DNA of 64,000 bases from Coptis chinensis (lineage: Eukaryota > Streptophyta > Magnoliopsida > Ranunculales > Ranunculaceae). Of the stretch, positions 2,502 to 64,000 are shown one piece after another (the stretch's first letter is position 1; every line of letters begins with the position of its first letter). Location of the stretch: assembly GCA_015680905.1 (NCBI GenBank), contig CM027377.1:34124501-34188500 (forward strand), read 5' to 3'. The position numbers and the translations under genes are program-made. Under the pieces are notes generated by a model that searched no databases, was not told the DNA's origin, and saw only the letters and a list, made by a program, of their open reading frames with translations.

Positions 2502-3076
<575 letters not shown>

Positions 3077-4860: not shown

Positions 4861-5269
4861 CAAAGGAAGGGCATCGTACCTACTTTTCTTTAATTTGGCC
4901 CGGTGCACCCCATTTGGATAAAGTGAACCCGGTTTTTTAGCTATCTGACCCATTTTTTTTTTTTTTTTTTTTGCAGGTAGAAACAACCGTATTATACGGG
5001 TGAAAGATAATCGAGACGAAGAAGACTCGATGACGATCGTAGACATGGTGAGGTGGAAAGAATGTGACAGATACAGCGAATACACAAAGTTGCGGTGATG
5101 GTCACTTAAAGAATTACATAAAATATTAGTAATGCGAATTTTCACCGCACGAAGAAACGCGCGGTATTACGAGCAAAATATATTCACAAAGAGTCGACGG
5201 AGAAAAGTTTCGTGCATATGTCAATTAATGTCGTAGAAGAATTAAAGAAGTTGATAGAAGTTTCGGTGA

Positions 5270-6195: not shown

Positions 6196-6529
6196 CGGAA
6201 GATAGTTAACCGAAAAGTGCTAAGCGGGTTTAATGTAGATTCGAAGAAAAAAACGAAGATTTAATCGAGTGATCGTAAGACAATTTACAGAGACAATTGA
6301 TTAGGTAATTGTGTGAATGTAATACCATATAGTTAAAACTTCTTTTGATGAAAAATAAAAATAAAGTATGGGTTTGCTATTGAATATTGTTGTGGTGACA
6401 GATAACATACCTGCGGAAAACTGACAATGTTGTTGATTTATGTAGTTGAAATGAAATAGAACGAGATGCCCCTATGTAGAGAAAAACACCCCCAATGCTA
6501 ACTTAACTCGGCAAAATTATACTAAAGCG

Positions 6530-14994: not shown

Positions 14995-17900
14995 TGTCAC
15001 AGCCCGATTTTCTAAACAATTAAAATAATGAATATTTGAAATATAAATATCTCAAACATCACTATATTCAATTGTCTAAAAACCCAGGCTATGACGGGGT
15101 GATACAACACATGTCAAAACCTAAAACCCACATCACAACAGGATCAACTTAACAACAAAAAAAAACTCCAAATTCCTCAACTATCACTTTATTAAAAACT
15201 TTCTTCCATCCCAATACAAACATAAACAAACTTTAAGAATAACAGGTCTTCAACATTGTATTTCATGTCATATGAAAATGTAACCTACGTTATTACATCC
15301 TTCCAAAAGATCATACCTAATAAACTAAACTCCCAGACTGCTCGGTTTCCCAATCACACGCCCGCGATTCCATCCTTCCACCTATGTTCCCAAGAACACA
15401 CCCACGCTGCAAAAACAAAGCAAACATGGGTTACAAATTGAATTTGCTGGTATGAGTAGACTAACTACATATAAACATTATCATACTTTAATTATCCAAA
15501 CAACACTTTAACTCTATCATAACCTAATCATTCTCAGCTTGGAAGACGGTGTAGTTCCGCTCATCTCAACCGGCATAGTTCTTCCCAAGCAAAACTTATA
15601 TTATCTTAACTCATTCAAATCACTTTCGTTTTAATATCTAAATAATTGAATTACACTTACCGATATCCGCCAGTATAAGGGTAGGACCCGTCCCCTCCTG
15701 ACAAAATATTATTAAGTCCTACCCTCCTCCGAAAAGAAAGTTAGAACTTGTATATAACATATGTACATATCCTATATGTATTCAAAAGTAAGCCCAAACA
15801 CACTTGCATCATCAAATAAATTTCTCTTATCACTTAATCAATTACTTTTCTTATACACCCACCCTTTAGTACCTACTCCACGATTTGCACTCCACACATT
15901 TGCCAAATCACACATTCCTGTGTGCCTCTCTCTCCCACCGAATACCACAATATCATAGCCATCTCCTCGGCTTTCATACACATATTGCATGTCTTTGGGC
16001 AAAAAACTTCGTGTCATTCATGGCACATTCAATGAATACCTTAGGTCATTCCCGCCACATTCAAGGAATACCTATCATATCACTAACGGGCCATTCATGG
16101 CACATTCAATGAATGCCCTGGGTCATTCCTGCCACATTCAAGGAATACCCAATCCTACATTCCCGTACACTCAAGGAATACAACTAACCCGCAAGGCGAA
16201 TACCTTAGTTCCTCTTTAGGGCAGTCCACTACAATCTAGTCATTCATGGCACATTCAATGAATACCCTTATATAACGCTAACGGGCCATTTATGGCACAT
16301 TCAATAAATGCCCACCTAACATATGACATAATCAGTCATAAAACTCAATTCCAAAACTTGAGGTGGAGAGTTCTAAAAGAGTTAAATTTATTTACGTTAT
16401 TGAACTTTATTTTATATATCATTTAAGATAACGAATGAGTATCTTGATTCCTGTATTTTTGATTTACTGGCGTTATTAATTTCGGGGGATGTCTTAGTGT
16501 CATAACGTTGCATATCATAAAATAATTTGCCAAAATTACATAGTAGTTAATACACATACACATCGTATATATAGAGGTCTTAGCCTAAAGTCAAGTATGC
16601 TAATAGCCTTAGACCTACCTTAATAACCCAAATCATAATCCGAAGTTAAAATGTCAAATTTCAACTGGTCAAAGTCAACCCTAGTCAATAAATCAACCAC
16701 GTCAAAGTCAAACTGGTTTCCAAGTTCAATTGGTTCGAGGTCATAGCCATGGTTCATAGCTAAGGTCAATGTGCATGGCTCGAGGGCTCCGACTAAGGTA
16801 ATGGTTCGACCCAACCGCCAAGCCCAAAACCTTAGAACCCGAAAGTCCAAACATGTAAAGACCCAGAAAGATCTATTTTAAGTCCAATGGACTGGCCCAA
16901 GCAATATCAGAAACGGGCCCAAAAACTTATACTGACCTGGCCCAAAACATAATTGGATTCGGCCCGAAAATTAAACTGAAACCGGCCCAACAAAACAATC
17001 TAAGTTCTGGCCCAAAGACTTAAAAGAAAATGGACCAAACCAACTAAAACAAACCGGGCCCAAGTAGCTAAAAGAATTTGGCCCAAACCAAATAGACATG
17101 AACTGGCCCAACACAACTCAAAATTTGCTAAGGTCCAAGGCCCAACTAAACAAAACAAGGTCGGCCCAACCAAAACTAAACCGGCCCAAAACAAAAACTT
17201 AAGGTTTTTGGCCCAAGGCCCAAAGCCCAACTAAGATGAACAGTGTCATCTTCTTCACCAATTCTCTTCCACCACCGGCCACCAAATCGCGCCGCCACCA
17301 TCTCCCATTCCATTAAGTCGGTTAGACTCCCCATCCAAACCCAACCAACTTTAATGAAAACAAAAACTCCAATCCTTCAATCCCCATTTATACATCAACC
17401 TAGATCTAAAATTCGACCTCCATTAAAGCTTGTTTTCAAGCTTCAATCGACAGCCCCACAACCCTCAACCACCACTAACCAACCAATAACCAATTCCTCC
17501 ATCTTCAATCAACAACAAAACAACAAAAAACAATAAAAAAATCAAATTCGGAAGGGCCTGCATGCGCGCCATTGACGCACCTTCAAGCTTCAACTCCCAC
17601 TCTCCAAAAGGTCCACTACCACCATCATCAAACCATAATCACACAACCAACCAAAATCCATCCAAAACAGTCCAGAATTATATTTTTCTGGAGGATGATG
17701 GAAACCCACCATTATTGCCGGTTCAAAGCTTCACCCACACCTACCCAATCAAGTTATACAACTCGACCGCAACAAAGTATAACCAACCAAATGAAATACA
17801 AACACTTCCAAAACATATACAGGATGGTTTGGTCGCGAGGGCTCGCGCGCCATTAACGACCTCAGTCCCAACAGTTCAACAGTTTAATAACAAAAACGAA

Positions 17901-18639
17901 ATTTAACAAAGTTAAATAATACAAAGACACGAAGTCCAATCCAACAGGTTTTAACAATGCTTTCTACGGCCGAAATGAAAGCGAGTAAAATTAGTGAAAA
18001 CATATGACAATAAAACGGTTTCTGTATTCCGGTGAAATAGCAAAAGAGCTACTCACCTTAACTAACAGCTCGACGAATTTTCCTAGCCCGAATCGTCGTG
18101 CTCCACCTCTCCAGCAAACCAGCTTCTTTCTCTGCCTCCATTTTTTTTTTATTTTATTATCTTCCAAAACCCTATTCTCTAGAACAATGTGTTTTATATA
18201 CTTGGGTCCTAAACCCAAGCCCAACACCGACTTCGGCCCAAAACCAAGCCCACGTATCCCGAGTCCAATCCGATGAATTTTAAAATAAACAATTAAATTA
18301 ATTAATTAAATAGAAAAATCATTATTTAAAAAATACGGTGAGATGCCTCCTCGTGCTCCGCCCATTAACGACCTCAGAGCCGATAGTTCAACGACCGCGG
18401 TATCCGCGATGTCTGGTTTGACAGTTCTATATCAAATCCGAGTTTCTCTAGAGTTTTAACAACTCGACGACACGACGTAGAATAAAAACAAGGACAACAC
18501 TTATCCATTTATCTACGGACTTTTATCCGTCCGAAACTGCTGGATATCCTATATCTGTTTTATCTGTTATCTATTTTCATTATTATCTTTATTATTATTA
18601 TTATTAGAAAAACAAAGAAATAAAACACGGGGTGTTATA
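14995..18639 (-). mobile_element. Inverted solo LTR of a related gypsy family inside the 3' LTR
   Basis: A 3645-bp insertion starting TGTCACAGCCCG and ending ACACGGGGTGTTATA, the reverse complement of the host LTR's own ends. It is flanked by the duplication ATAGG (14990-14994 and 18640-18644), and the undisturbed target is readable in the 5' LTR near 10442. It is longer than the host LTRs and clearly diverged from them, so it belongs to a related subfamily. It has no internal domain. Plus-strand open stretches at 17243-17906 are Pro/Thr/Asn-rich translation of LTR sequence and I do not call them genes. Confidence 0.88.
16016..16290. repeat. LTR minisatellite, period about 76 bp
   Basis: Alternating CATTCATGGCACATTCAATG and GCCACATTCAAGGAATACC motifs recur in this solo LTR. 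The same motif pair is expanded at 30780-31040 and nearly single-copy in the gag-only element (10390-10470), so copy number differs between LTR subfamilies. Confidence 0.8.
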
Positions 18640-19560
18640 ATAGGGGTATTCATTGAATGTGCCATGAATGACCAGATTGTTTGGATTGCCCTAGAGAGGA
18701 ACTAAGGTATTCACCTTGCGGGTTAGTGGTATTAATTTGATTATGCGAGTGTTTGGGTTTGCTTTTGAATACCTAATATAATATCTACATATGTTATATA
18801 GAAGTTCTAACTTTCTTTTGTAGGAGAGTAGGACTTAATAACATTTTGTGCAGGGACGCGGTCCTACTCTTATACAGCAGTGGATATCGGTAAGTTTTAA
18901 TTCAATGATTTAGATATTAAAACGAGTTATTAGAATGAGGTAATATAATGGAAGTTTTGCTTGAGAAGAAACTATGCCGGTTGAAATGACAGAACTATCT
19001 GTCTTCCAAGCTGAGAATGATTCAGATATGGGAAAATATAAAGTGATTGTTTGGATAATTAAAGTATGATAATGTTTATATGTGGTTAGTCTACTCATAC
19101 CAGCAAATTCCATTTTGCTGACCCATGTTTGCTTTGTTTTGGCAGCGTGGGTGTGTTCTTGGGAACATAGGTGGAAGGCGATGGAACCGCGGCGCAGATT
19201 TGGATTTTTGCCCGAGCGATCCGGAGATTATTTTATTAGGTCTGATCTTTTGGAAGTATGTAATAACGTAGTTTTCTTTTCATAGGACATGAAAATACGA
19301 TGTTGAAGACCTGTTATTCTTAGAGTGGTTTGATGTTTTATTGGGACGGAAGATAGACTTTTTTATAAAGTAATAAAGAGAATTTTGGAGATTTTTTGTT
19401 GTTGTTAAGATTCTTTTATGATGTGGGTTTTCGGTTTTGGCATGTGTAGTATCCACCCCGTCACAGCCTGGGTTTTTAGACAATTGAATATAGTGATGTT
19501 TGAGATATTTATATTTCAAATATTCATTTTTTTAATTGTTTAGAAATTCGGGCTGTGATA

Positions 19561-19935
19561 CGGTAACTTCGTCAGATTTTGTCGTAGCGATAATAACGAA
19601 CTAAGCGAGCATAAAAACGTTCAAACTTAGATTGACGAAGCTAAATGCGATAACTTCGTCAGATTTTGTCATAGCGATAGTAACAAACTAAGCAAGCGTA
19701 AAAGCGTTCAAACTTAGACTGACGAAGCTAAACGTGGTAACTTCGTCAGATTTTGTCGTACCGATAGTAACGAACTAAAAGAAAAGCGTTTAAACTTAGG
19801 ACCGATGAAGCTAAATACGGTAACCTCGTCAGATTTTGTCGTAGCGATAGTAACGAACTAAGCGAACGTAAAAGCGTTCAAACTTAGACTGACGAAGCTA
19901 AACGCGGTAACTTCGTCAGATTTTTTCGTGACGAT
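19561..19935. repeat. 87-bp tandem array, right part (copy 1)
   Basis: Continues the array broken at 7182. GTTCAAACTTAGA-type unit starts fall near 19618, 19706, 19788 and 19878. The last unit degenerates near 19930, where the pol remnant begins. Together with the left part, copy 1 holds about twelve units. Confidence 0.88.
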
Positions 19936-21970
19936 AATAATATTGCGATGGAAACAAAATGGTACCATTAGAACTGAAGTGAAAGAAAGACTTTATTGAG
20001 CACCAAATCTTGAAAAATGCAAAGATAATAATAGAAAAGAAACTATTGAACTGGAAATAGACGAACAAATTTTTGTCTGGTTTTTCGTTCAACTTGTCTA
20101 TTTTGTCCGTTCCCTTAATAAAATAATTTGTTATAACGAGCAAGAAACGAACACTGTTGGAGCTGTCAAAAATAAACCAATAATGTCAAGGCCTCATTTA
20201 GCAAATGACCAAGGTTTATGGATTGGATGACGCTTCATTACGGAAGTTTGACCCATATCACATATCATGTTTTTGACAAGGCATACACTTCTCGGAGAAA
20301 CGTTTAACATCCTTTGGCATGTACGGCCACCAATACCATTGGTTCATTGCTATGTGAGCGAGACCTTGCCCTCGAAGTGGTGTTCACATAGTCCTGAATG
20401 AATTTCTTCGACGCCTAGTAAATCGTTCGTTATGCCCAAACAACGAAGGGTATAGTAGGATTGAGACTTGCGCTGCTGCGATAGAGTGTTTGGTCATCAA
20501 GAATTCCGAAGCATTGTCAGCTGCATGATCGTCGTCGGTAGATACCGAGACATTATCAGTGTCATGCTCATTGGAATTATCTGACAGCATAAGTGGTTAA
20601 TCTAATGTTGTCGTGACAGTGACGACTTGATTTTCCACGGATAAGTATGTGATAGAATTAGGATGCCTTACATCATAACGCGAGATACTGTACAATACTG
20701 ATAGATGTAAAATTTTATGCAATTCGTTGAACTAAGTCTAAAGAAACGTCCATTCTATTATTGCGAGCCGCATATTATCATTCAAAGTGGCTAGCAACTA
20801 GCTTAGAATAATTAATCGTAACTTAGTCGCCCCCAGCTGAAGAGTTGTGTGTATACCGCAAATGACAGTTTTGTACTCGGTCATATTATGTGAAGCGTCA
20901 AAACCCAAACGTAGAGATTATGCAAACCTAATTATGTTTTCATTCAGCTTCAAGATGTCAAAACCAAAATCGGAGCCAGACTTATTATGCAAACTATCGG
21001 TGTAAATCTAACAATCAGCTAATATATCCGATAAGTATTTCAAGTCATCGCCCCCGTGAGATAATGACAATTAGGGATTGACGTGTTTCTCATCGAGTAA
21101 TACGTTCGACATAGGAATATCATCGATAAGAAAATCAGCCATTAGTGAAACCAAAGTTTGTCTTGTTTTAACTGTATGAGTGTCAGAGACAATGTTGTAA
21201 GCGTTAAGGTAACTTTTCTATTCTGCGACTCGATCCGTAGATATTGCAAAAAAACTTGCACAACAGATATTCGATAAGTATAAACTTATCGAATAAGCTT
21301 AAGACGTTTGACAGCATGAAACAAGACCAATACAATTTTCTTAAAGTAAGAATGCTTCCATTCAGCTGAAATAAGAGCCGTACTAACAAATAATATGAGA
21401 CGACCATCATCACTATCAAACGACAATGGACAAATATGAATTAGATACACTTTGCTGAGATTCGTGAAAAATAATAATTGCGAAGTCCGTATTTATTGTC
21501 TTGAACTCGTGGGTAACCATTGTGAATAACGAGAATCTAATCATCACCACTTAAATGAACCCACACGTAACTATGTTGTTGGCATGTGTGACGTTGTGGT
21601 ATGACAGATACAACATCATCTGACGAGAGGAATGGTTGGTTTCATACGACGGTTGTAGTAGTTGTTATGTTTGTCGTACACTTGTGCACTTTTGAAGAAG
21701 TGTTTCTAGAGACATATGACTGACATTATCCGCAACAGATGACGAAGAATTGTCAGAGGCAATAACTTCGTGCCGAATAATTTGGCTCATCGGTGGAACG
21801 GTAGCCGGGTCGCATGCAATCGGGTGTTGAAAAAGAATAAGAGGGAGTAGTCCAATACCGCCAGGGTGACCTTGAACCTCACATTCGCGATGATCGTCAG
21901 TAAGTGCATCGAGAACTTAGGCTCATCGAGTATTCGTCATAACTTTTGTAGAACGTGATCGTCAGTTTTG
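19936..21970 (-). mobile_element. Tat-like gypsy pol remnant (RNase H and integrase), copy 1
   Basis: Minus-strand traces of gypsy pol in the expected order. An RNase H-like stretch lies near 21450-21150, a second RNase H-like region near 20950-20750 (LRLI and LQLGATKL), and the integrase zinc-binding and core start near 20450-20170 (EIHSGLCEHH, then PIHKPWSFAK and LDIIG). Two RNase H-like regions suit the Tat lineage, which has a dual RNase H, but the assignment is by eye. The region is heavily broken and is not a gene. The copy ends near 21970, where similarity to 57420-59105 stops. Confidence 0.62.
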
Positions 21971-22896
21971 AATAAGAACCGCATATGACTCGTAGAAAAC
22001 AAGCACCTAAAGTACATCATTTACAATTTTGTTATCTTTACGACTGAGGAAATAACTTATTTAGAGTGCCCACTACACTACTATTAATGTATCAACTATC
22101 AAAGCCCACTTGGCGACGTACGTATTTCTGATTCATATTATCTATTATTATTTGGTGACAGATTCCTCGATATCTCTACTAGTAGCAACAACAATTTCTT
22201 CTAATATGCAATTGTCTCGTTGAGATTCAACATTGACATTGACTAGCTATCTAAAGAATATGATGTACATGTCTCTATTCTTTCACTTCTTTGCCACATA
22301 GGCCGAAGCCCATGCTCCAAAGAGGGGACGATGTTTGGACCCCCACTATGGAGATGGGCCCAATACGTTCTCTACAATGAAGAATCCTCATCAAGCAAGA
22401 AGACTATTTGTCCAAGTACAACGCACCTCAATGAGATAAATACCAAATCACATTAATTAGAAGATCACCATCAACAAGTTTAAGTTCTATCCAATCACTA
22501 CCTATTGTAATCTATATAATTAAGACCTTCATGTAAAGAGCACAGGGAGAAACTCTTATTCTCTTCTTCATTCTCATGTAATCTCTAAGCAACACCATTA
22601 ACAAATTAAAGATCAGTGTGGACGTAGGCACTTTTGCCGAACCACAATAAAATTATTGTGTTCTTTTTTCTATTGTGTTTGACCAAAGAAATTGTGTCAA
22701 AACAATAGGACCCTAAGAAACGGATTAATGCTGCCCAAGCCCTTGGTGAGTACCATGGAAAAATGATAGAAGCTCTAATTTATTTACTTTATAGTCACTC
22801 CTGTTACATCAGTCTCATTTTATGAAAACTCAGGGTGCTTGTTTCAGTAGTAATAATAACTAATAGAGCTATATAAAGTACAGCTTGAAACTTCAC
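21971..22896. other. Intergenic stretch with an LTR-like U5 signature
   Basis: No coding sequence recognised. Around 22330-22700 the text looks like the end of a retroelement LTR: a TGGACGTAGGCA...GCCGAACCAC segment near 22618-22652, of the type found in plant copia LTRs (compare 48595-48640 on the other strand), then a T-rich run. I cannot define its borders. The segment 22740-22896 should contain the 3' UTR of the plantacyanin gene on the minus strand. Confidence 0.4.
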
Positions 22897-23463
22897 TCAT
22901 ATTGCATTAACAATGATCTTCATCCAAGACTCACAGTGCCCAATATAATTGCAGATAAAAAAGTTGGGACCCTTTGCCAATCTGATCCGATCAGTCCCAC
23001 TCTTAAGCACTATTGCACCCCTTGGAGTCCGGCATGTGTTGTAGCTCCTCGGGTCAACGACAACCACTTTATGGAATGAAGGGTTGTACTTGAAAATTAC
23101 ACCATGAACACACGCTTTAGCATGTATGTGAATTTTAATCTAAATGAGTGAAGACACACAAAAGAGCATTTTCCGCATGCAGTTCCCCCTAATTAAGTTT
23201 GATTTCATCTTATTATAATAATAAAATTAAAGTGCTAAAAAACAAAAAACAAAAATGTTTTTATGTGAATATGGTCAATACCTATCCATTTTCATTTATA
23301 TTTTTTCAGATATGCTTTTTCATTTTTTTTTATTTAGCTAAAACACTTTTGCCCAGTACTTATAGTATGGCAGTTGTGGCTCACTCTTGTTTACTATTTA
23401 ATTTTTCACAATAAGGCCCTAAGTCTATCATCGTTAGCTCCACTAGGTAATCGAACAATGCAA

Positions 23464-34195: not shown

Positions 34196-36418
34196 CTAGA
34201 CAATTCTTCTTAATCTCTGGACAATTCCTTTTATCGTGTGACACTCCAACCTTGTTACTTCCATTCCACCGTCTCCTTTTATATTTTTTCGCCTTTTTGA
34301 GTGCTTTCTCTTTCTCACCTTTAAGCCTTTTTCCACATCCTTTTTCTTTTGTTGACTCGGTTCACGATAATTACTTTCCAAATTAGAACTCTTTGCTCCA
34401 AAAACTCCTACACTTGTATCACAACCAAATGCTTGACTACCTTTCTCATGCGGTGATGCTGCATTTGTACCACAACCAACCAATTTACTAATTTTTTCAA
34501 GTGCATCACTTAAAGCATCAGTAAACATTTTAGTTGCTTCTTCACTTCCAAGGGCTTTATCAACTACAAGTGTTGACATTTGAATCAATTCATTCCACTT
34601 TATGAGGAATAATTTATTAGCTTGAATCTCCATTCCGCTATCATCAATGACTACCCCTGACTTTGCAGTTTTACACCATCTCTTCAAAATGTATTGATTC
34701 AGCAACTTATCAAAATCATACATCTTGTTCAAATAAGCCAAAATATGCCTACAAGGGACCCCCAAGCTCTCAAACTTTTTGCAAGTGCATGAAGCAAAAT
34801 CTAGATCTTTTTGATAAGAAATATCCCACACTCTAGACTTTTCGGCCCCCATTTTTCTATGAACCTTATAAATGCAACACTTCTCATTCTCACTAACAAG
34901 CACAAATCTATAATTCAAGCTCTCCCATAACTCATCTTGAAATTTTTAAAAAAAACTCATGTGTATAAACATCAACCTTGTGTACCAAAAAGCTATGGGG
35001 CATTTTCATTTTTGGTTTCTCAATCATATCTTTGTTATCTGTCATTAATTCTTCATGACGTTGGGGCACAAGTCCCCTACCAAATTGAACCATAAAATAT
35101 ACCAAAGAATTTTCATTTGAAACATACGTTTTGAAGAATGAATGAGCACTTTCTGCTCGTTGACTCATTGTGATTCACATGTGTAGGCACCCATTGTGAT
35201 CGGATTTCATACATCGACTCCAGCCATTTGTTCTCATGTAAACCACTCCTTTGAAGAATATCATTCCACTTCAAGTCAAACTCATCTTTCATCAGTATGT
35301 GCCAACTGCAGTACTTGTTGACAAAGTACCCAAAGCTTCAGTATGTAAAACAAATAAAAAAAATAATGTGTGCAAATTAATTATAAAATAATAATAATAA
35401 GAAGAAAAAACCTGTGAAAAGTGGTTGGAAGAGTTTGAGAAATGGCTTTTGTCATTGCTAGATCTTGATCTGTAATAATAATCTTTGGAGGATCACCTGG
35501 CATAGCTTCTAAAAATTGGTTGAACAACCAAACAAATGATTCTGTGGTCTCATCACATAAAAATGAACAAGCAAAAACAACTGTCTGACCATGATTATTA
35601 ACCCCAAATAGCGGTGCAAGAATCAATCCATACCTATTAGTGTTGTACGTAGTATCAAAGATAACCACATCACCATAAAATGTGTATCCTCGTCTTGAGG
35701 TCGCATCAGCCCAAAAACATCGAGTAATTCTCTGGTCATCGTCTGTCTCAATTTTAAAAGTGAAATAAGGATCCCTCCCTTGTTCCAATTTTAAAAACTC
35801 GTGAAACATTTTTCCACCATGACCTTTCATCTCTTTACACTTGTCCCTTTCCTGGTTATTTAAATTTTTCTGTGTAAAACCAATATTTTCTATCCCTCCG
35901 AATTGAACTCCAAGAAGACTGAATTGTTGATGTTGTGGTATGTTTACCGTGCCAAGTTGCTACATTAAACATTTTTAGGCACAAGAAACACCACGGTGAG
36001 ATCTTAGAAGATGTACTCTACGCGGGATCGACAACAGGTGAGAATGCCCTTCATCGAATAAAGTAACAACAAATGTACCAGAGTTTGATTTCACCACAAC
36101 AACTATTGCTTTACAATCTTCTTTTATATTTCCCCGACACCTTTTCGTATCAACGTCTGCTACTTCTGAACTTTGTCCTTGTTTGTAACACACATATTCC
36201 TTTCTTACACATTCACCATCTTTCTTCCTATTAGACCAACTACGAACACTGAATCCATCGACTTTGGCATATGTATTGTAGAAACTATAGACATCATCAA
36301 GTGAGTCAAACTCTTGTCCTTTTCTAGGTTTGGCATCATTTGATACTTGGGGATTGTAAACCTGATTAGGCTTCCCACGTACACTCTCACTCTCAATTAC
36401 AAAATCATCATCTTCCAT
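34196..36418 (-). pseudogene. FAR1/FHY3-type (MULE) transposase gene, decayed
   Basis: From the start at 36418 (MEDDDFVIESESVRG) comes a FAR1 DNA-binding domain with SFYNTYAKVDGFSVRSWSNR and a Cys/His zinc motif (CYKQ, CRGN, HSH). From about 35840 there is a MULE transposase core with VVIFDTTYNTNRYGL, APLFGVNNHGQTVVFA and IIITDQDLAM, the Asp residues being likely catalytic. After a probable intron at about 35391-35340 come MYEIRSQWVPTHVNH and SQRAESAHSFFKTYVS. A SWIM zinc finger, CTCKKFESLGVPCRHIL, lies near 34790-34740, with a Lys-rich tail to 34196. Breaks include stops near 35973 and 35960, and frameshifts near 35165 and 34935. It sits inside a pair of terminal inverted repeats, so I call it the element's transposase and not a host FRS gene. 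Confidence 0.85.
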
Positions 36419-36481
36419 CTCAATGTAACCTGAAAAAAGAAAAGAAAATAAGAAGGTATATCAAACACAAGTTCAAATTAA

Positions 36482-48407: not shown

Positions 48408-49061
48408 TGGGGTTAAACCAATATCAATCGATCCCTACTACACAGATAACTCGTACTAGAACCAACAACAATCACCAGACAACAATCTAAATATCAACTA
48501 CAACCTAGCTAACATGCCCAACTCACTAAACAACTATTAACAACAGATAATAATGTAAGGAGAAGAACAAGCATACCACAACACAAAGATATACCGTGGT
48601 TCGGCCAATGGTGCCTACTTCCACAAGAGCTAATCCTTTTATAAAGTGGGAAGGAAGATTACAATCACTCCTTTCAGTCTCTCACCTTACTAGATTACTC
48701 TTCTCTCTTTACAGGGTTGTTTCTCTGTAAAGGTTATCTCTCAATCTTGATTGCTTTCAAGATTGGGTTTTCTCTCTCTTGTGTTGCCTTGGTTTGTGTT
48801 TTAGGTTTTGCCAAAAACCCCAACATAAATTGCAAACTCGTGGTTTCATAAAAATAGAATTCTGCCGAAAATAGGCATTGGCGCAGGCACGCCTTGAGCA
48901 AGGCCAATGTCGAGCGCGCACGCACCCTAAAAACACTATAAGTTGTCCACGGCATAGGTGCGTGCGCGCCTTAAGCAAGACCAGATTGAACGTGCGCGTG
49001 CTCAACCTTATTCACGTAGACTGAACTTCTTTTCCTCCTCATGTGAGGGATAACTTTAACA
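48408..49061 (-). repeat. Copia 3' LTR
   Basis: On the plus strand it starts TGGGGTTAAACC and ends AACTTTAACA. A TATA-like TTTATAAAAGG on the minus strand lies near 48645-48655, and the U5-type CCGTGGTTCGGCCAATGGTG text near 48595-48615. Followed inward by the polypurine tract CGGGAGGGAGAGAT (minus strand). Confidence 0.88.
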
Positions 49062-49357
49062 ATCTCTCCCTCCCGAACAGTGAGGTAGGCTACCTCCATG
49101 CAATTTCCAAATCAACAAGATGAGTTTGCTACCATTCCAACGGTAGCACAACAAACATCAAACTTACCTTTTGGTAAGACTTTGGTCATTATATCCGACC
49201 CGTTCTTTTCGGTATGGATCTTCTCGATACACAAATGCTTGTCTTCGAGTACTTCTCTAATCCAATGATAACGCACATGTATATGCTTGGATCTAGAATG
49301 AAAACTCAGATTTTTGCTTAAATAGATGGCACTCTAACTATCACATAGAACTACAAA

Positions 49358-52300: not shown

Positions 52301-53144
52301 TTCTGACATAATTCCCACTAGATCATTGACTAGTGCGGTAGTATCTCTGCATGTGTTTCCGTCCTCTGCACTATGTCTTCATGTACACAGTTATTCTTCT
52401 TATCCCTCTTTAGTGTTCTACACTCATATCTGAAGTGACCCTTGGTGGCACAATAGTAACATTGTCTCTCTGCCTTAGGAGTTCTAGTTTCACCCCTAGA
52501 TTTACTTCTATCATCACCTCTAGAATGAAATGGTTTTCTGCTTCTACCTTTCCCCCATTTCTCTGTGACAAGGATCTTTGAGTAAGAGGAGCTGCTTCTT
52601 GGACTCCTTCTAGTATCCTCATTCAACAAAGACGCAGTAGCCATCTCCATGGAAATGATTCCATCCTTAGCTGATCTGTGTAGAGAAACTGCTAACGTCT
52701 CCCAACTTTTGGGTAGAGAGTCTAATAGAAACAAGCCTCAACTTCGTCTTCCATATTAATCTTCATCAAATGTAACTGATTGATGATATTATGTACTTCA
52801 TTAAGGTGCTCAGACATTGAAGAACATTCTTGGTATTTCGTGTTGGCAAACTTCTTAACAAGCAGCACTTTGTTTCCGCCCGAATTCCTCTCATAGAGGT
52901 CTTTGAGTTTCTTCCACAAGCCAAAAGTTGTAGTCTCTTGGGATACATGGTGAAAGACACTGTCATCAATCCACTGTAGAATACACCCAATTGCTTTTTT
53001 GTCAAGTTTGCTCCACTCAGCCGAAAGAATCTTTTCCAGTTTTTCTCCTCCATTTTCAATGGGTTGTGCCAAGTCCTTGCAATATAGCAAGTCTTTCATC
53101 TTGGCTTTCCAAATGGTGTAGTTCTTCCTATTCAGACTCGTCAA
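49358..53144 (-). mobile_element. Copia gag-pol coding region (fossil)
   Basis: Domains in order on the minus strand, approximate positions: gag (UBN2-type) 53140-52400 with a CCHC knuckle CYYCATKGHFRYEC; protease with the DIGASYHITP active-site motif and GAG-pre-integrase 52320-51800; integrase core 51790-51130; RT 50800-49850 with the YVDDMLI catalytic motif; RNase H 49790-49360 with the LSTTEAEY motif. This is the standard Ty1-copia order, and the sequence resembles the Tnt1 group. The whole is a fossil. Confidence 0.93.
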
Positions 53145-53286
53145 TGCGAGTGTGCACGAAATGGTCCATCTCTACAAGTTATTTTCAACTCAAACCTCCT
53201 CTTAGGAATTTGTTCAAACACCTTCTGGGTTAGGTTTGGATAATACCCTAGGTTAATCTAACCAAGGCTCTGAACCACTTGTTTGG

Positions 53287-56200
53287 TGTTTCGACCAAAT
53301 ATGATCAAAACACTAAGTGTTGATGAAAGAGACGAAGAACGTAGAAAAGTAATTAGAAAAATGATGGTGATCGGGAGAATGATAAGACTGTACCTTGCGG
53401 TTGCCTACGTACCCAAATTATCAATGGGATCAAGTCTCAAGAACGTAGTTCTGAATGAAAAATAGTTTGGTATTTATATAGGTAGAGTAGAGAATCCTTG
53501 TAGCTCAAGTATTCTTATAGCTTGAGTCATTGTGATAGAATATAACTCTCAACTGATAATTATCTCTTTGATAAGAAATGAATCTGGACATAAATCAATG
53601 TACATTAGTGGCAAACCATGTGGCTAAGGTTCACCTTAGACACATGAGTTAATGAGCCCGCATTGATCCATGGTACTTGTAAATTGGGCTTTAGTCCCGT
53701 CGATTAAACGAATAAAGTGGAGATTCCTACCAATGGACGTTAAGCCCGCGCGTGGGTGGGGTCGAACATCACCCCTCTTTTGGCATGCTAACAAAGTTCA
53801 TATGGCAAAGAAGAAAAAAAAAATGAGCGGAATATAGAACGAAGTGTCGTGCGAAAAGAAATAATTGGAAAATTGACTATCGAAAAAAATTCGTGAATTA
53901 TCGGGAACGAAATAATGTCAAACTAACGTATACGGGACGCAATGTAGTTAAATAAAAGATGGCCGAAAATGCACAGAAAAAAATAAAATATGCACAGAAA
54001 TAAAATTGCAAAAAAAATTCAATTGGCGAAAATTGTACCGAACGCGTCACGTAATAATACGAAATTTGAATTCGACGATGCGTGCCAATGGAATAGCGAT
54101 ACTTGGATTATACCGTTGAAAATTAAACGTAGGGGCAGTTTAATAATAATAGTAATAAAAGGAAGTTAAATACGAATTGGATTCAAAAGTGAAGATTTTA
54201 GGGACTAAAACTGGATGCCAACTTCGGATTAGATAAGAATTCGGATTAGATAAGAGTTCAACCAGCAATGGAAAACTAGATCGAAGAAATATTATATAAA
54301 CAGTGGCTAAGCTCTATAAACTGCGAAGACGTTTATGCATAGACAACGAAATGGTTAGTATAAGTGGTGAAGCCGATGCATGTAGGGTAATCTTTTTTCT
54401 CTTGTTCGTATTTGCCTCTTCTCAAAACGATAAGCGTTATTTAATCAAAACGATAGGCATTATTTACAGTAGCTTGGCAAGATACAAATGAACCAAGAAT
54501 TAATGGCTGTCATCTATTCAGAATATCACAAGATCACTATTTTAGGCGTTAAAAATACTCAAAGGTTTAACATAATTCATAATGGTCATACCATATTTGT
54601 TTTCGCTAAAGAACTCATACTATACTAAATATATACAACAAATCTGAATAAGCATGGTGCACATGACTATGACTTCATTGGTCGGCATGAACATGGGGTT
54701 ACTTGGGTTTTATACCTCATCGACAATTATCACATCGAGATAGAGAGAAAAACAGGCTAATTTTGGCTATCTTTTTTTCTCACTTTGACCTTCTCTCTTC
54801 AATAACTTCCAATATTCAAGCTTTATCTTTCAAGAACGAATCTAAAGCAAGAAAGAGATGAGATCTTTAGAAGATGAATTGTATCCATCTAGTGGAGCTG
54901 TTTTATCTGTTTTATATGTATTTTTCCTTATATGGCGTATATATTGTTTACTCTTAGCTAATGTCTATGTGTTGCGTGACTTTCCAATTCTTTCTATTAG
55001 AGATTGACACTTAATACGATGTAAAGTTCATCTAGCTCTTTAGGATATTTAGATTAGCACTCTTAGCTAATGTCACTTGTTCAAGTTTGGCTTTTCAGTT
55101 TGTTACTTCGCATGATCATCGCTTTCAGATAACTATAGTCATGTTCAAGGCAGCACTAGAATAACAATAGTCACTCACTTGCTCTTTCTTTGCACTGAAC
55201 AGGAAGATGGTGAGCACTAGATAACTGACGAAAAGTTTTTTTTTTTTTTTTCACAGGAAGAAACGACTGTATTACACGGACGAAAGATAATCAAGAATAG
55301 TAAGAATCGATGACGATTGTAGACTTGGTGAGGTGGAAAAAAAAGTGACAGATATATAAGCTTAATACACGAGGGTCGCTACCGGTCACTTAAAGAACTA
55401 CGGAAAATACTAGTACTCGAGAGATTTGAGATGGACGAAGTGTATGCATTTGAAACGAAAGTCGAAGAAGATGAAGTAGTAACGGCTTAATCACAATTAA
55501 GTTGCGGGAGTGCAATTCCATTAAACAAAGAAATTGCGCAATTATTGAGTTATTTTGGGCTGCCAAAGAAGACGGAGAAAAGTTCGGAGAATATGACAAA
55601 ACAGTGGCAAAAAAATTCGACAACATGAAACAGGTATGTCAGTATTTTTTTCCATTTAGCTTCAAATTTTGGTTAAGTCTGAAAGACTAAAAAAAGATTT
55701 GTATTTTCTTCGCAGGTTGAAATGGCGGAATTACGAGCAAAAGATATTGACGAAAAATTTCGAACGGAATGATCACAATGCCGTTGAGAAATAAATAAAT
55801 AAGCTGAATAAAGTTTTAAACACAAAGTTAACGTAAAAGCAAAATTTTTGCGCATTGCAGAAACGACGGTTATGCGAGCCTCGAAAAGTTTCGCTTAGAA
55901 AGTTCGGCTTAATGCCTTAGAAAAAATAATGAAGCTGTCAAAAAATTTCACTTGGTAAATTTCTCGTAAAAAGATCGATAGAATGCCTTAGAAAAAATAA
56001 TGACGCTGATGAAAATTTTCGATCGAAAATTTTTTCGTAGAAAGATCGGCATAATTCCTTAGAAAAAAGAATGACTGTGGAAAATAGTTAACCGAAAGTG
56101 CTAAGCGAAGCGAATGCAGATTACGAAGAAGAAAATGAAGATTTAATCGAACAACCATAAGAAAATTGACAGAGACAATTGATTAGGTAATTGTGTGAAT

Positions 56201-56350
56201 GTAATACCATAGAGCTAAAACTTCTTTTGATGAAAAATAAAAATAAAGTATGTTTTGACAATTGAATATAGTTGCGATGTCTGATAACATACATGTGTAA
56301 AACTGACAATGTTGTTGATTTATATAGATGACACGAAATAGAATGAAACG
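53287..56350 (-). repeat. Left LTR of the palindromic insert
   Basis: Aligns with 3081-6488 at both ends but not in the middle (about 54250-55215). It holds a short exon-intron-like unit on the plus strand: EYDKTVAKKFDNMKQ ending at a CAG/GTATGT donor (55633), and VEMAELRAKDIDEKF after a TTCGCAG acceptor near 55715. Copy 1 has the same splice-like borders at 5819 and 5902. A poly(T) run at 55238-55252 precedes the shared inner part. Confidence 0.65.
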
Positions 56351-56449
56351 CCCCCAATACTAACTTTAAGCTTGTAAAATTAGATTGATCGAAAAACGCC
56401 GACGCTAACCCAATTTAAACGAAACGGGTAATCTTCATCGATGTTGACA

Positions 56450-57420
56450 TAAGCGAGAAAAACCACTAGCGAAATGCGTAAAAGATTCAACTTAGACTGC
56501 CGAAATTAAACGTGGTAATTTCATCAGATTTTGTCGGAGCAATAGTAACGACTAAGCGAGCGTAAAAGCTTTCAAACTTAGACTGACGAAGCTAAACGCG
56601 GTAACTTCGTCAGATTTTGTCGTAGCGATAGTAACGACTAAGCCGAAAATAAAAGCGTTCAAACTTAGGATCGACGGCTAAACGCGGTAACTTCGTCGAT
56701 TATGTTGTAGCGATAGTAACGAACTAAGCGGAAATAAAAAGCGTTCAACTTAGATCGACGAAATTAAACATAGTAATTTCGCCGATTTTGTTTTGTCAAA
56801 AGCGATAGTAACAAACTAAGCTTGAAGCGTAAAAGCGTTCAAACTTAGATCGACGGCTAAACGCGTAACCGTCGCCGATTTTGTCGTAATGATAATAACG
56901 ACTAAGCGAGCATAAAAGCGCTCAACTTAAACCGACTAAATTAAACGTGGTAAGACTTTGTTGTAGCGATAGTAATGACTAAGTGAGCCAAAAAAAGCTC
57001 AACTTAGGACCGATGAAATTAAACGTGGTAATTTCGTCGATTTGTCGGAGCGATAACTAATTCGACTAAATGCTAAAAGCCGCTCAACTTTTTAGACCGA
57101 CAAAATTAAACGCGTGGTAATTTTGCTAGATTTTTGTTGTAGCGATAGTAACTACTAATTAAGCGAAATAAAAAGCGCTCAACTTAGACCGATGAAATTA
57201 AACGCGGGTAATTTCGCCGATTTTGTTGTAGTGATAGTAACGAACGACTAAATGGCGTAAAAGCGTTCAACTTAAACCGACAAAATTAAACGCGGATTTT
57301 GCTAGATTTTGTTGTAGTGATAGTAACGACTAAGCCGGCGTAAAAGCGTTCAACTTAGGACTCCATGAAATTAAATGTGGTAATTTCGCCGATTTTGTCG
57401 AGCGATTATAAGGTTAAGCT
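56450..57420. repeat. 87-bp tandem array, left arm of the palindrome
   Basis: About eleven units of the same repeat as 6530-7182, with the TAGTAACGACTAAGC and GTTCAACTTAGA-type landmarks in the same orientation. Units are more variable in length than in copy 1, with recurrent small differences that may be partly sequence-quality effects. Confidence 0.82.
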
Positions 57421-59105
57421 AGAACCAAAATCATACCATTTAAACCGGTGAAAGAAAACGCTTTTTATTGATTACCGAAGTCTTGAAAAATGCAAAGATA
57501 ATAACGGAAAAGAAACTATTGAACTAGAAACGGAAATTAACAAATTTTTTGTCCGTTTTTCGTTCGCTAGAACTCAACCATTGAACCGGTGTCTATTTTG
57601 TCCGCCATTATTAAAATAATTTGTTGCAACGAGGTTTAAACTAACACCGCCGTGGGTCATAAAAATAAACCAACAATGTCAAAACCCCATTTCGCGAAAT
57701 GACCAAGGTTTATGGATTGGATGACGCCGTCGGGAAGTTCACCCATATCATATATCATGTGTTTGACAAGGCACGCGACTTCTCGGACAAACGCTTAACA
57801 TCCTTTGGCATGTATGACCACCAATACCATTGAGTCATTGCTATGTGAGCGACTTAAGCCCGGGAGTGGTGTTCACATAGTCCCGAATGAATTCCTTCGA
57901 GGCCTAGTAAATTGTTCGCTCGCCCAAACAACGGCGGATAGGATTGAGACTTGTCTTTCGGATGATAGAGTTTTAGTCATCGAAATCCACGAGCATCGTC
58001 ACCGCATGATTGTCGCCGGTAGATACCGGTGACATTATCGCTACTGCTCGTTGGAATCATCTTACAAAGATAAGTGGTTAATCCAAAGTGTTGTCATAAC
58101 GGTGATGACTTGATTTTCTACGGATAAGTATGCGATAGAATCGGGATGCTTTATATCATAACGCCGGATAATTGTCACATGAATGATAGATGTAAAATTT
58201 CATGCAATTCATTGAACGAAGTCTAAATAAACGTCCATTCTATCATTGCGAGCGATATTTATCATTCAAATTGGCTAACGACTAGCTTAGAATAATTAAT
58301 CGTAACTTAGTCGCCCCCAGCTGAAGAGTTGTGCGTATACCACAAATGACAGTTTTGGACTCGGCCATAGTATTTGACGTGTCAAATCCCCAATGTAGAG
58401 ACCTCTCAATTATGTCTTCATTCAGCTTCAAGATAACACAAACAAGACCGGAGGCAGACTTATTATGCGAACTATAGGTATAAATCTAGCAAGTAGCTAA
58501 TATATCCGATAAATATTTCAAGTCATCGCCCTCGGGAGGTAATGACAATTAGAGATTGACGTTTTCCTCATCGAGTAATGCTTTCGACATAAGAATATCA
58601 TCAATAAGAAAATCAGTCATTAGCGAAACCAAAGTTTGTCTCTGTTTAATTGTATGAGTGTCAGAGACAATATTGTAAACGCTAATGTAACTTTTCCATT
58701 CTGCGACTCGATCCGTAGACGTTGCGAAAAAACTTGCGCAGCGGATATTCGACAAATATAAACTTCGACTATTCCTTCTTTGAAATAAGCTTAAGATGTC
58801 TGACAGCATGAAACAAGGCCAATGTAATATTTTCAATACAAGAATGCCTCGAGACATATGACGGACATTATCCGCTACAGATGACGAAAAATCGTCAGAG
58901 GCAATAACTTCGTGCTGAATAATTTGGCGCATCGGTGGAACGGTAGCCGGGTCGTATGCAATCGGATGTTGAAAAGGAATAGGAGGGAGTAGTTCGATAC
59001 CGCCAGGTTGACCTGGAACCGCACATCCACGATGATTGTCAGTAAGTGCATCAAGAACTTAGGCTCGTCGAGTATTAGTCATAACTTTTGTAGAACGTGA
59101 TCGTT
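57420..59105 (-). mobile_element. Tat-like pol remnant, centre of the palindrome
   Basis: Aligns with 19936-21970 in the same orientation. On the minus strand an RNase H-like stretch (SLMTDFLIDD near 58630-58600) comes first and the integrase zinc-binding region last (near 57900-57650). It is present once, so it breaks the symmetry of the palindrome. Heavily broken fossil. Confidence 0.62.
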
Positions 59106-60245
59106 GGTGTTGCATAAGTTGAACGCTTTTACGCTCGCTTAGTCGTTACTATCACTACAACAAAATCTGGCGAAATTATCACGTTTAATTTTGTCAACCT
59201 AAGTTGAACGCATTTACGCTCGCTTAATCGTTACTATCATTACAACAAAATCTAGCGAAATTACCACGTTTAATTTCATCAGTCTAAGTTGAACGCTTTT
59301 ACACTCGCTTAGTCGTTACTATCACTACAACAAAATCTAACAAAATTACCACGTTTAATTTCGTAGGTCTAAGTTGAACATTTTTACGCTCGCTTAGTCG
59401 TTACTATCGCCCGATAAAATCGACCGAAATTACCACGTTTAATTTCATCAGTCTAAGTTGAACGCTTTTTCGCTCGCTTAGTCGTTACTATCGCTACAAC
59501 AAAATCTTGCCACGTTTCATTTCGTCAGTCTAAGTTGAACGCTTTTATGCTCGCTTAGTCGTTATTATCGCTACGACAAAATCTGACGAAGTTACCGCGT
59601 TTAGCTTCGTCAGTCTAAGTTGAACGCTATTACGCTCGCTTAGTTCGTTACTATTGCTACGACAAAATCTGATGAAATTACTACGTTTAATTTTGTCAGT
59701 CTAAGTTGAACGCTTTTACGCTCGCTTAGTCGTTACTATCAATACAACATAATCCGACGAAGTTACCGCATTTAGCTTCGTCAGTCTAAGTTTGAACGCT
59801 TTACGCTTTAGTCGTTAGTTATATTTTACAAAATCTAACGGTTACCACGCTTTTAGCCGTCGGTCTAAGTTTGAACGCTTTACGCCGCTTAGTTCGTTAC
59901 TATTGCTACGACATAATCCGACGGTTACCGCGTTTAACTTCGTCGATCCTAAGTTGAACGTTATTCGCCTCTTAGTTCGTTACTATCGCCTTTACAAAAT
60001 CGGCGAAATTACCACGTTTAATTTAAAATCGGTCTAAGTTGAACGGCTTTACGCCGCTTTTAGTGTTACTATCGCTACATACAAAATCTAACGGTTACCG
60101 CTTAGCCGAATCGTTTAAGTTTGAAAGCTTTTACGCTCGCTTTGTCGTTACAATCGCTCTAACAAAATCTGACGAAATTACCACGTTTAATTTCGGCAGT
60201 CTAAGTTGAATGCTGTTACGCTCGCTTAGTCGGTTACTCGCGCTA
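59105..60245. repeat. 87-bp tandem array, right arm of the palindrome (inverted)
   Basis: About thirteen units in reverse orientation, for example GTCTAAGTTGAACGCTTTTA followed by CGCTCGCTTAGTCGTTACTA. The array starts abruptly after the pol remnant near 59110. Confidence 0.85.
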
Positions 60246-60345
60246 TGTCAACATCTGATGAAGATTATCCCATTTCGCTTCGGTTACCGTGGTCGGGTTT
60301 TTTTCTCCAATCTAATTTTGCAAGCTTAAAGTTAGTATTGGGGGC

Positions 60346-63124
60346 GTTTTATTCTATTTCGTGTCATCTATATAAATCAATAACATTGTCAGTTTTACAC
60401 AGGTATGTTATCAGACATCGCCACTATATTCAATTGTCAAAACATACTTTATTTTTATTTTTCATCAAAAGAAGTTTTAGCTCTATGGTATTACATTCAC
60501 ACAATTACCTAATCAATTGTCTTTGTCAATTGTCTTACGGTTGTTCGATTAAATCTTCATTTTCTTCTTCGAATCAGATTCGCCTTCGGCTTTTTTAACT
60601 ATTTTTCACGCCATTCTTTTTCTAAGGAATTATGCCGATCTTTCTACGAAAAAATTTCCGAACGAAAATTTTCGTCAGCGTCATTATTTTTTCTAAGGCA
60701 TTCTGCCGATCTTTCTACGAGAAATTTACTAAGTGAAAATTTTTGACAAATTCATTATTTTTCTAAGGCATTAAGCCGAACTTTCTCGCGAAAACTTTTC
60801 GAGGCTCGTGAAACCGCGTGCTTATCCTCATAGGGCAAAAATTCGCTTTTACGTTAACTTTGTGTTTAAAACTTTATTCAAATTTTATTTATTTATTTCT
60901 CTACGGCATTGTGATCATTCCGCTCGAAATTTTTCACAATATCATTTGCTTTCGTAATTCCGCTTTCAACCTCAAGAAAAAATACAAATATTTTGTTAGT
61001 CTTTCAAACTTAACCAAAATTTGAAGCTAAATGGAAAAAAATACTGACATACCTGTTTCATGTTGTCGAATTTTTTTGCAAACGCTTTGTCATATTCTTC
61101 GAACTTTTATCCGTCTTCTTCAGCAGCCCAAATTCAATTTCCCAAATTCAATTTTGATCGAAACCCAACAATTCAAACAATCAATATCCATCACAGATTA
61201 CCACCGCCCACCACACCAAGTACACCCTTCCTGTCAACAATTCCTCCGAACACCATATGTCTAATTCAACATCAGAGACGCTTGTGGGGCACAAGCATCC
61301 TTTTACCTTTGGTAAGCGAAAGTAAGTTTGGTTTTTGGGATTTTTCTCAATCTCTCTAATGGAACCTCAGTCCTCCTTTGGTTCTCTATTGTGACGTCAA
61401 TTGAATATATGTAACGATCCTGGAAAAAAAAATTAAAAAATCCTTAACTTTGTAAACCCCTGTTTAAAAATATCTCAAGTTGAAGTTCCCTTTCCACTAT
61501 ATGAAATATGGTCAAGTCAACTCTACCTTCTTAACCAAACATGGCAACTAGGACATGGAGAGCCCTGTTGTTTTCTGTCTCCGTTTAATTCCAATGATTG
61601 TGCGATAATTCAAGCTCCCGTAGTAACTCGAACTCTAGCCTCTCTCCCCCTTGCTACTATTTCTCTCTGCGTTTCTGTGTTGTCAGGAGCTCTGTATTCT
61701 GGAGAGCCCCTTGTTTATATCTGGGTCTTCTTTCCTTGAGTATTCGGTTTTGATTTGAATGGAAAGTTCTTATTCGGTTTAGCTCACGCAAGATTCGGAA
61801 TTCGATCGGGATTAGAAACCCCCAAAGATATATTGCTCACGTCTTTTACTAGTAGGAATCGGGTATTGTTTTCGTACCCAAAGGGATTGGGATTAGAAGG
61901 GATTCGTGACTGTAATTGGACTGCTCTTCGTGAGCATTTCGGTGTTTATGCGATCGAATCGGAAAGAGCAAAGTCGGTTTTTCTCCTGTTCGTGAGAAAT
62001 GGAGATGGAGAAGGAAACTATTGTTTTGATCCAATGATCCGGTTCTAGTATAACTTGAGGAGTGGTAGATCATAGCAAAAACTTAAGCCTTCATCTTGGG
62101 TGCTGATCACTTAAGCCCAAAAGCCCATTGCCCTTTTTAATTTCTTTTGTGTCTTCTTTTCTTTAGTTGGCCCAACATCACAACTAACAAGGCCCATCCA
62201 AATAAACCAAGCCATATCCAAATGCAAATAGTGAATTCACCAACCCTAGGCACCTCTACAAAATTACCAAAAACTAATTATGTCCACTTCTCACTCCAAC
62301 TCTTGTTAATGTTTCAGTACAATTCTTTGGTCCTATTTTACTCCACCTACTCTTGTATATTTTTCAAATCCCAATTATTTCATACACAATAATTCACGCA
62401 TTTTTTTTGACAATCAGTTTTCATATCGTTTACGTTCACACGACACTTTCGTATACGTTAATTTGACATTATTTCGTTTTCGATAATTCACGAATTTTTT
62501 CCGATTGTCCATTATTCTATCGTTTACGTTCACACGACACTTTGTTATACATTCCGTTTACTCTTTTCTTATTTCAAGTTTTCCTTGATTTTTCTTCTCT
62601 TCTTTGCCATGTGAACTTTGTTCGCATGACAAAGAAAGAAAGCGGTGTTTCGACCCCACCTTACGCAAGCAAACGCTCATTAGTAGGGTCTCTAATTTAT
62701 TCATTTAATCGTTAAAGCCAAATTTGCAATACCATGGATCAACGTGACGGGCCATTAACTTCGTATGTCTGCGTCAACCTTAACCTTACCACATGGCCAC
62801 TAAATGTAACGCTAATTTATGTCCAGATTCGTTTCTTATCAAAAGAGATAATTATCAGTTGAGAGTTATATTCTATCACAATGACTCAAGTTACAAGAAT
62901 ACTTGAGCTACAAGAAATCTCTACTCTACACATATAAATACCAAACTATTTTTCATTCAGAACTACGTTCTTGAGACTTGATCCCATTGATAATTTGGGT
63001 ATGTAGACAACCGCAAGGTACAGTCTCATCATTCTCCCGATCACCATCATTTTTCTAATTACTTTTCTACGTTCTTCGTCTCTTTTATCAACACTTAGTG
63101 TTTTGATCATATTTGGTCGAAACA
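60346..63124 (+). repeat. Right LTR of the palindromic insert
   Basis: Starts just after the polypurine tract AGTATTGGGGG (60335-60345) and ends GGTCGAAACA. The PPT-proximal part (60346-61130) and the outer part (62400-63124) mirror the left LTR. The middle (61130-62400) does not and contains an unidentified 97-codon open stretch at 61755-62048 with no recognised motif. A segment TATCGTTTACGTTCACACGA is duplicated about 95 bp apart (62427 and 62520). Confidence 0.65.
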
Positions 63125-63125
63125 T

Positions 63126-63762
63126 TGGGTTAATACCAATATCAATCGATCCCCACTACACAGATAACTCGTACAAGGACCAACAACAATCACCTGACAA
63201 TAATCTAAATATCAACTACAACCTAGCTAACATGCTCAACTCACTAAACGGCTATTAACAATAGATAAATAATATAAGAAGAAGAACAAGCATACCACAA
63301 CACAAAGATATACCGTGGTTCGGCCAATGGTGCCTACTTCCACAAGAGCTAATCCTTTTATAAAGTGGGAAAGAAGATTACAATCACTCATTTTAATCTC
63401 TCACCTTACTAGATCACTCCTCTCTCTTTACAGGGTTGTTTCTCTGTAAAGATTATCTCTCAATCCTGATTGCTTTCAAGATTGGGTTTTCTCTCTCTTG
63501 TGTTGCCTTGGTTCGTGTGTTAGGTTTTGCCAAAAACCCCAACATATATTGCAAACTCGCGGTTTCACAATAATAGAATTCTGCCGAAAATAGGCATGGC
63601 GGTAGCGCCTTTGCAAGGCCAATGTCAGCTGTCAAGGCCTAAAACACTTGTAAAGTTGTCCACGGCATGGGCGCTGCGTGGCAAGAAGACCGATCGAATA
63701 CATCGGCGCCAATTTCTTCACGCAGACTGAACTTATTTTCCTCCTAATGTGAGGGATAACTC
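63126..63762 (-). repeat. Copia 5' LTR
   Basis: Aligns with 48408-49061 over nearly its full length. GC-rich text at about 63590-63710 is locally scrambled relative to the other LTR. The outer end near 63762 is unclear, because the sequence beyond belongs to another copia element. Confidence 0.82.
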
Positions 63763-64000
63763 CTGTTAGGAATATCCAACTTAATTGTACCCATCCTAGA
63801 GATCTTAATTCCTAGGATAACATCAGCGACACCTAAATCTTTCATGCCAAACTTACTAGACAACATTTGCTTGGTAGATTTTATGACATCCATATTACTA
63901 CCCAAAATTAGCATATCGTCTACATAGAGACAAACAATGACACATCCCTTTTGAGTGCTTTTGACATAGACACACTTGTCACACTCGTTTATTTTGAAAC
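63763..64000 (-). mobile_element. Reverse transcriptase piece of a second Ty1-copia element
   Basis: On the minus strand the text reads VIVCLYVDDMLILGSNMDVI and FGMKDLGVADVILGIKISR, the catalytic YVDD region of copia RT. It is a different, diverged element from the one at 48408-63762 (which has YVDDMLIVGPN). It continues past the window end. Confidence 0.9.

Follow-up and report, generated by a model that had tools for sequence, protein, structure and literature searches.

A head-to-head palindromic retroelement within a copia element of Coptis chinensis, with apparent U5-type ends at both edges

Sabot and Schulman (2007; PMC1950507) described complex retrotransposons of grasses, attributed to template switching, in which three long terminal repeats (LTRs) accompany two complete cores. 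Elements of the Tat lineage commonly, though not universally, carry tandem repeats 3' of their coding region, according to excerpts of PMC7004042 and PMC6317226. DIRS-1 is described in part of PMC5633606 as having inverted LTRs and a tyrosine recombinase. Ginger elements, in the passages available from PMC2836005, have TGTNR ends and target CCGG or CCGT (Ginger1) or RTATAY (Ginger2); the same passages contain the authors' proposal that a 3' LTR, an integrase region and an inverted LTR formed a path from an LTR retrotransposon to a DNA transposon. Here we describe a palindromic insert at positions 53287-63124 of a 64,000-nucleotide stretch of Coptis chinensis DNA (assembly GCA_015680905.1, contig CM027377.1, positions 34,124,501 to 34,188,500; the whole stretch is called the window below). 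The insert has head-to-head arms and appears to have entered a host Ty1/copia element.

The insert resembles the grass complexes in that two parent RNAs are thought to have been fused in reverse transcription, with one integration, a target duplication and like external ends. It differs in that those complexes have an internal third LTR, two complete cores, LTRs all in one direction and a 5-bp target duplication (PMC1950507), whereas here two inverted LTRs lie head-to-head with no central LTR and the duplication is the 4-bp TTGG. With the Tat elements Ogre and Retand, as excerpts of PMC6317226 and PMC7004042 describe them, it shares downstream arrays and large LTRs, and it may share RNase H-like sequence before integrase. 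Ogre and Retand have an additional RNase H of archaeal type between RNase H and integrase. Unlike in these elements, two 3' halves face each other, the LTRs are inverted rather than direct, and no primer-binding site (PBS) or 5' LTR was found in the palindrome. Like DIRS-1 it is a retroelement with inverted terminal repeats, but it duplicated its target and retains what reads as part of an integrase zinc finger. Membership in DIRS was rejected: TTGG is present at both sides, and DIRS elements are not known to duplicate their target. An integrase remnant was recognized in a second copy of the family, and no tyrosine recombinase was hit in those portions of the centre's minus-strand frames (all three represented) that were scanned.

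The head-to-head palindromic structure at 53287-63124 is real. Its boundaries at 53287 and 63124 hold to the nucleotide. Both ends share their outermost 38 nt without a mismatch, and over 283 nt the outer arms show 96% complementarity (53287-53569 against 62842-63124). Mirrored inverted blocks follow at 56124-56403/60292-60571 (95%), 55554-55722/60964-61132 (91%) and 55922-56067/60617-60762 (93%). Longer arm pieces were aligned by BLAST at 82.0% identity (53287-53934/63124-62450) and 81.1% identity (55554-57460/61132-59267). Both arms carry arrays with units of approximately 85-87 bp, and the segment between the arms, at about 57461-59114, has no inverted partner. An earlier note on this DNA, made from the sequence without database searches, had described inverted outer edges followed inward by LTR parts and 87-bp arrays around a single unpaired pol remnant, and each of these was recovered. 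The features of the insert and its flanks, some of them defined by comparison with the second family copy, are as follows.

53172-53286, minus strand: left flank, leader and putative PBS of the host Ty1/copia element; its gag open reading frame (ORF) follows at 52800-53171
53283-53286, no strand: left copy of TTGG
53287-55235, minus strand: apparent left LTR with a TG/CA end, its U5 (unique 5') end outward at 53287 and its U3 (unique 3') start placed near 55235; aligns with 3081-4104 of the second copy
55236-55252, minus strand: A-rich sense purine tract of the left arm, resembling a polypurine tract; in the second copy, TG comes after the homologous tract (4953-4972)
55554-57460, minus strand: left 3' untranslated region (UTR), with a 71-bp array at 55881-56075 and an array of about 86 bp at 56476-57406
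57461-59114, minus strand: unpaired centre, in which remnants of an RNase H-like domain (RVT_3) and of an integrase zinc finger precede an unassigned stretch
59115-59118, no strand: TAAG microhomology at the joint of the centre and the right array, seen against 21928-22020 of the second copy and the array units
59115-61154, plus strand: right 3' UTR, with an 85-bp array at 59115-60245 and 71-bp units at 60612-60793
61155-62373, plus strand: middle of the right arm, without a counterpart in the window; a different U3 or a later replacement
62374-63124, plus strand: outer part of the apparent right LTR, its U5 end outward at 63124, with a TATA box 192 bp from the outer end
63125-63128, no strand: right copy of TTGG
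63126-63767, minus strand: host copia 5' LTR, forming the right flank; the 3' LTR is at about 48408-49066, and 48410-49055 matches 63127-63761 at 88.8%

Both edges of the insert read as the same U5-type end of a Tat-like Ty3/gypsy LTR. On the minus strand, the centre translates into degenerate sequence that resembles RNase H and integrase and runs in the direction of the left edge. From the centre toward the left LTR, the order is RNase H and integrase remnants, then arrays. Since the remnants run toward the left LTR and the arrays lie downstream of the coding sequence, as is the habit of Tat elements, the left arm is probably a 3' end. Its outer edge would therefore be the U5 end of a 3' LTR, with the same end recurring in reverse in the right arm. 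A TATA box was found on the sense strand in all three family copies at 192-194 bp from the outer end (194 in the left arm, 192 and 193 in the others); the left arm has one additional TATA match 1012 bp from its outer end. The presence of two U5-type ends, flush with the target duplication, is as the earlier note had claimed.

A nested element divides the second family copy into two pieces, 3081-7182 and 19561-21976. In the same orientation as the left arm it contains an LTR end, 71-bp repeats, 87-bp repeats and pol remnants in this order, and 71-bp and 85-87-bp arrays lie between the integrase sequence and the LTR in both arms and in this copy. In its stretch homologous to the palindrome, Pfam searches matched Integrase_H2C2 with E=4.6e-6 and 2.5e-7, so that the gypsy-type integrase was identified through this segment. 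Support is weaker in the palindrome, where one 52-residue piece matched Integrase_H2C2 at E=0.19. We class the insert as derived from Tat-lineage elements rather than as an intact member. Several results weaken the assignment. The RVT_3 match in the palindrome, upstream of the integrase remnant, had E=0.031, which is below the curated cut-off, and the RNase H piece of the second copy gave no RVT_3 hit in Pfam. Most pieces of the integrase stretch of the palindrome, including a 96-residue piece and a 495-residue frame, had no Pfam hit. Moreover, no complete family element with two direct LTRs was found within the 64-kb window, and the second copy (3081-21976) has no 5' LTR or other second LTR there, so the label "LTR" for this family rests on anatomy.

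The polypurine tracts did not fare as the earlier note had stated. The tracts that it named, at 53807-53823 (plus strand) and 62589-62605 (minus strand), exist, but they are antisense to the element and lie inside the LTR. The likely polypurine tract of the left arm is the A-rich tract at 55236-55252. On the right, there is no sense purine run of at least 13 nt in 60290-63124. When 61133-62449 was searched for a partner in the window, only 62374-62449 matched anything. The right middle at 61155-62373 may be a different U3 or a later replacement, and both are possible; in the latter case the missing polypurine tract region could be due to the replacement, a point against the account proposed below. 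We rejected a nested solo LTR as the source of this dissimilar segment, since the scans yielded nothing beyond 7-bp repeats and a single TG..CA pair (61336-62416, GTTTT). The U3 middles are unlike in all three family copies (54315-55217, 4140-4937 and 61155-62373), which suggests that the U3 of this family is hypervariable or exchangeable.

From its flanks, the insert appears to have entered the copia element at the boundary of the PBS and 5' LTR as one unit. On the left, the copia gag ORF matches Retrotran_gag_2 (Pfam, E=1.3e-16), and Pol_BBD and RVT_2 domains lie further along. Read in the copia sense, the sequence that adjoins the insert in this flank is TGGTTCAGAGCC, which we take to be the copia PBS. 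The right flank begins at the U5 end of the copia 5' LTR. Set side by side with one TTGG removed, the flanks bring the PBS-like sequence up to the copia LTR across a spacer of 6 nt. The probability of a 4-bp match at two random window positions is P = 0.0055. TTGG is present on both sides as previously claimed, and the claim of a single-unit insertion agrees with flanks that are adjoining parts of one copia element with a 4-bp duplication. It is equally possible that the duplication was TTTGG and that one T was lost at the right. Two observations fit less well with this account. The duplication is 4 bp rather than the 5 bp usual in plant LTR elements, of which an excerpt of a survey reports 93.4% with 5-bp and 6.2% with 4-bp duplications (PMC6317226). 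At the far end of the copia 5' LTR, near 63767, the expected CA and ATTAT do not follow. The sequence past this LTR, at 63767-63800, departs from the expected LTR end (TGTTAGGAATATCC) and is perhaps the start of another element.

The adjoining flanks also bear on whether two ordinary insertions in opposite orientation entered the same copia element, with a later deletion spanning the interval between the pol or leader of one copy and the 3' array of its partner. Nested insertions occur in this window and a joint with microhomology is compatible with a deletion, but the flanks adjoin and share TTGG, and both insertions would have had to strike within approximately 4 bp. We consider this sequence of events unlikely.

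Because the insert sits in the copia element, the copia element is older than the insert, and the divergence between the copia LTRs can be set against that between the arms. We calculated Kimura two-parameter (K2P) distances with the 85-87-bp arrays and gapped columns left out and the 71-bp region included. The outer 310 bp of the arms differ at 12/310 positions (K2P 0.040, 0.020-0.065). By contrast, LTR columns 311-648 differ at 45/319 positions (K2P 0.158, 0.112-0.210), although the exclusion of 64 gap columns may overstate this divergence. The contrast between the two parts is significant (Fisher P = 5.8e-6). The trimmed copia LTR pair has a K2P of 0.075 (0.055-0.099), and in a paired bootstrap the U3 value of the arms was not above the copia value in 1/1000 draws. 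That the U3 distance exceeds the copia LTR distance indicates that the U3 parts had diverged before the insertion. A single break between the arms fits best at column 310; its likelihood gain of 30.1 was attained in 0/300 permutations. Informative sites that group both arms number 28/39 in columns 0-310, 3/26 in 311-419 and 10/59 in 420-699, gapped columns being dropped. Pooled distances of the two arms to the second copy change little, from 0.106 and 0.117 in the outer stretch to 0.139 and 0.126 in 311-648, and the right arm compared with the second copy has no break to speak of (best gain 2.9, reached in 59/300 permutations). The sequences thus indicate that the arms stem from two different parent copies, and the earlier claim of two parent genomes is upheld by the U3 and copia distances and by the breakpoint at column 310.

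Other measurements pull against a simple history of two parents. With untrimmed ends the copia LTR distance rises to 0.084. In the 3' UTRs of the arms, K2P is 0.041 at 56124-56403 and 0.074 at both 55554-55860 and 55886-56123; the latter value lies between both LTR values, and all of these are within the age of the copia element. Comparison of the left arm with the second copy places a weaker break at column 438, whose gain of 7.2 arose in 2/300 permutations, and the identity of this arm to that copy varies from 93.5% in columns 300-399 to 74.0% in columns 400-499. The column-438 break means that recombination in the family extends beyond the two arms. The outer 310 bp may also have undergone gene conversion after the insertion. 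Recombination between family members during bursts, LTRs included, is described for Onsen in Arabidopsis in part of PMC5668417.

The same distances argue against an origin after insertion, either by inverted duplication through replication template switching or as a misassembly, which we regard as very improbable. Long inverted repeats are prone to both rearrangement and misassembly. However, the arms differ by 4-16% and in their U3, which speaks against a copied read and against a recent local duplication; misassembly of a sequence against its own inverse would yield near-identical arms, contrary to what we observed. A change after insertion would also have needed a second breakpoint exactly at the LTR end and TTGG, and there is no inverted copia leader past the right edge.

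At the inner joint, the sequence turns from the centre into the right array at a point where the second copy continues into other sequence. TAAG is common to both sequences at the switch point, forming a 4-bp microhomology; at simulated joints, at least four shared bases occurred by chance in 1.8% (0.018). This joint is not common to the sole comparable copy, which speaks against a propagating family. It bears on the idea that the insert belongs to a Ginger-like family of DNA transposons with terminal inverted repeats (TIRs), moving repeatedly with a retroelement-derived integrase and LTR-derived inverted ends. The inverted ends around an integrase region and the 4-bp duplication are alike, and the integrase remnant is in keeping with it. 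Yet the ends are TGTTT rather than TGTNR, the target is TTGG rather than CCGG/CCGT or RTATAY, the arms are approximately 4 kb long rather than 40-270 bp, a weak RNase H remnant is present, there is no intact transposase, and the one other copy is without the centre joint. Membership in Ginger itself was ruled out by the TGTTT ends and the TTGG target, and a wider Ginger-like family is highly doubtful.

We propose that two complementary DNAs (cDNAs) of one Tat-like Ty3/gypsy family, made from two different parent RNAs that may have shared one particle, were joined at their 5' sides to leave a U5 end at each extremity. Integrase would then have taken the two U5 ends as a normal pair and made one insertion into copia at the PBS/5' LTR boundary. 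The joining, presumably before integration, could reflect template switching from one minus strand to a second, or end joining between cDNAs that had been left incomplete. We assign a probability of roughly 0.5 to joining of two cDNAs before integration followed by one insertion through two U5 ends. The earlier note had proposed such a head-to-head cDNA; its two U5 ends, single-unit insertion and two parents agree with our results, but its polypurine tracts do not. With its TATA boxes directed outward and its pol remnants disrupted, the unit was most likely unable to copy itself.

A second route would have integrase pair the U5 ends of separate cDNAs at one target, with the free 5' sides, incomplete or trimmed, then joined by microhomology-mediated end joining of the host. 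This would explain the two U5 ends, the two parents, the near-normal duplication, the microhomology joint and the unequal depths to which the two halves are cut. It is supported by the active integrase tetramer of human immunodeficiency virus type 1, which brings two ends together (part of PMC2615046). On the other hand, two mature U5 ends would have to meet in the same complex and the broken chromosome would have to be rescued, and no in vivo case was among the literature matches listed. We hold this route to be possible, if doubtful. Template switching, cDNA end joining and two-donor integration with repair all yield the same product and are not separable here.

The joined two-U5 unit is the arrangement proposed for the origin of Ginger, in decayed form. 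As a head-to-head insertion it would be a rare accident, similar to the proposed step from copy-and-paste to cut-and-paste transposition. It is improbable that Tat-type reverse transcription repeatedly generates such insertions and that they are intermediates between LTR retrotransposons and Ginger-like, integrase-driven TIR transposons. No two-U5 palindromic LTR insertion was described among the literature matches listed, most subscription papers lying outside the search, and the same LTR end had 0 matches among the viral contigs of IMG/VR. PMC12368964 was set aside, as the part available concerns inversions between separate insertions in cod. The locus provides sequence evidence that two U5-type ends from different parents were inserted at one target, and that inverted units can arise in reverse transcription or when cDNAs are joined. 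Such units would escape searches built on direct LTRs, as in PMC1950507 and the excerpt of PMC6317226, so that their true frequency may be hidden.

Other features of the window were also noted. The LTR element that splits the second family copy is nested in its 87-bp array at 7183-19560 with CGGTA on both sides, and its LTR pair, at about 7183-11367 and 13372-19560, is interrupted in each member. Inside its second LTR is a reversed piece at 14995-18639 that has the two ends of the same LTR at its edges and ATAGG on both sides. It is probably an ordinary nested solo LTR, and much of its interior is without a partner. The U5 end of the second family copy is flush with a stretch at 2940-3080 that we take to resemble a calcium-dependent protein kinase exon; a 46-residue piece of it had no Pfam hit. 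There is a minus-strand plastocyanin-like ORF at 22900-23139 (Pfam Cu_bind_like, E=4.3e-15), a stretch that resembles a host gene. Minus-strand ORFs at 34199-36460 presumably encode FAR1/MULE-type transposase-like proteins.

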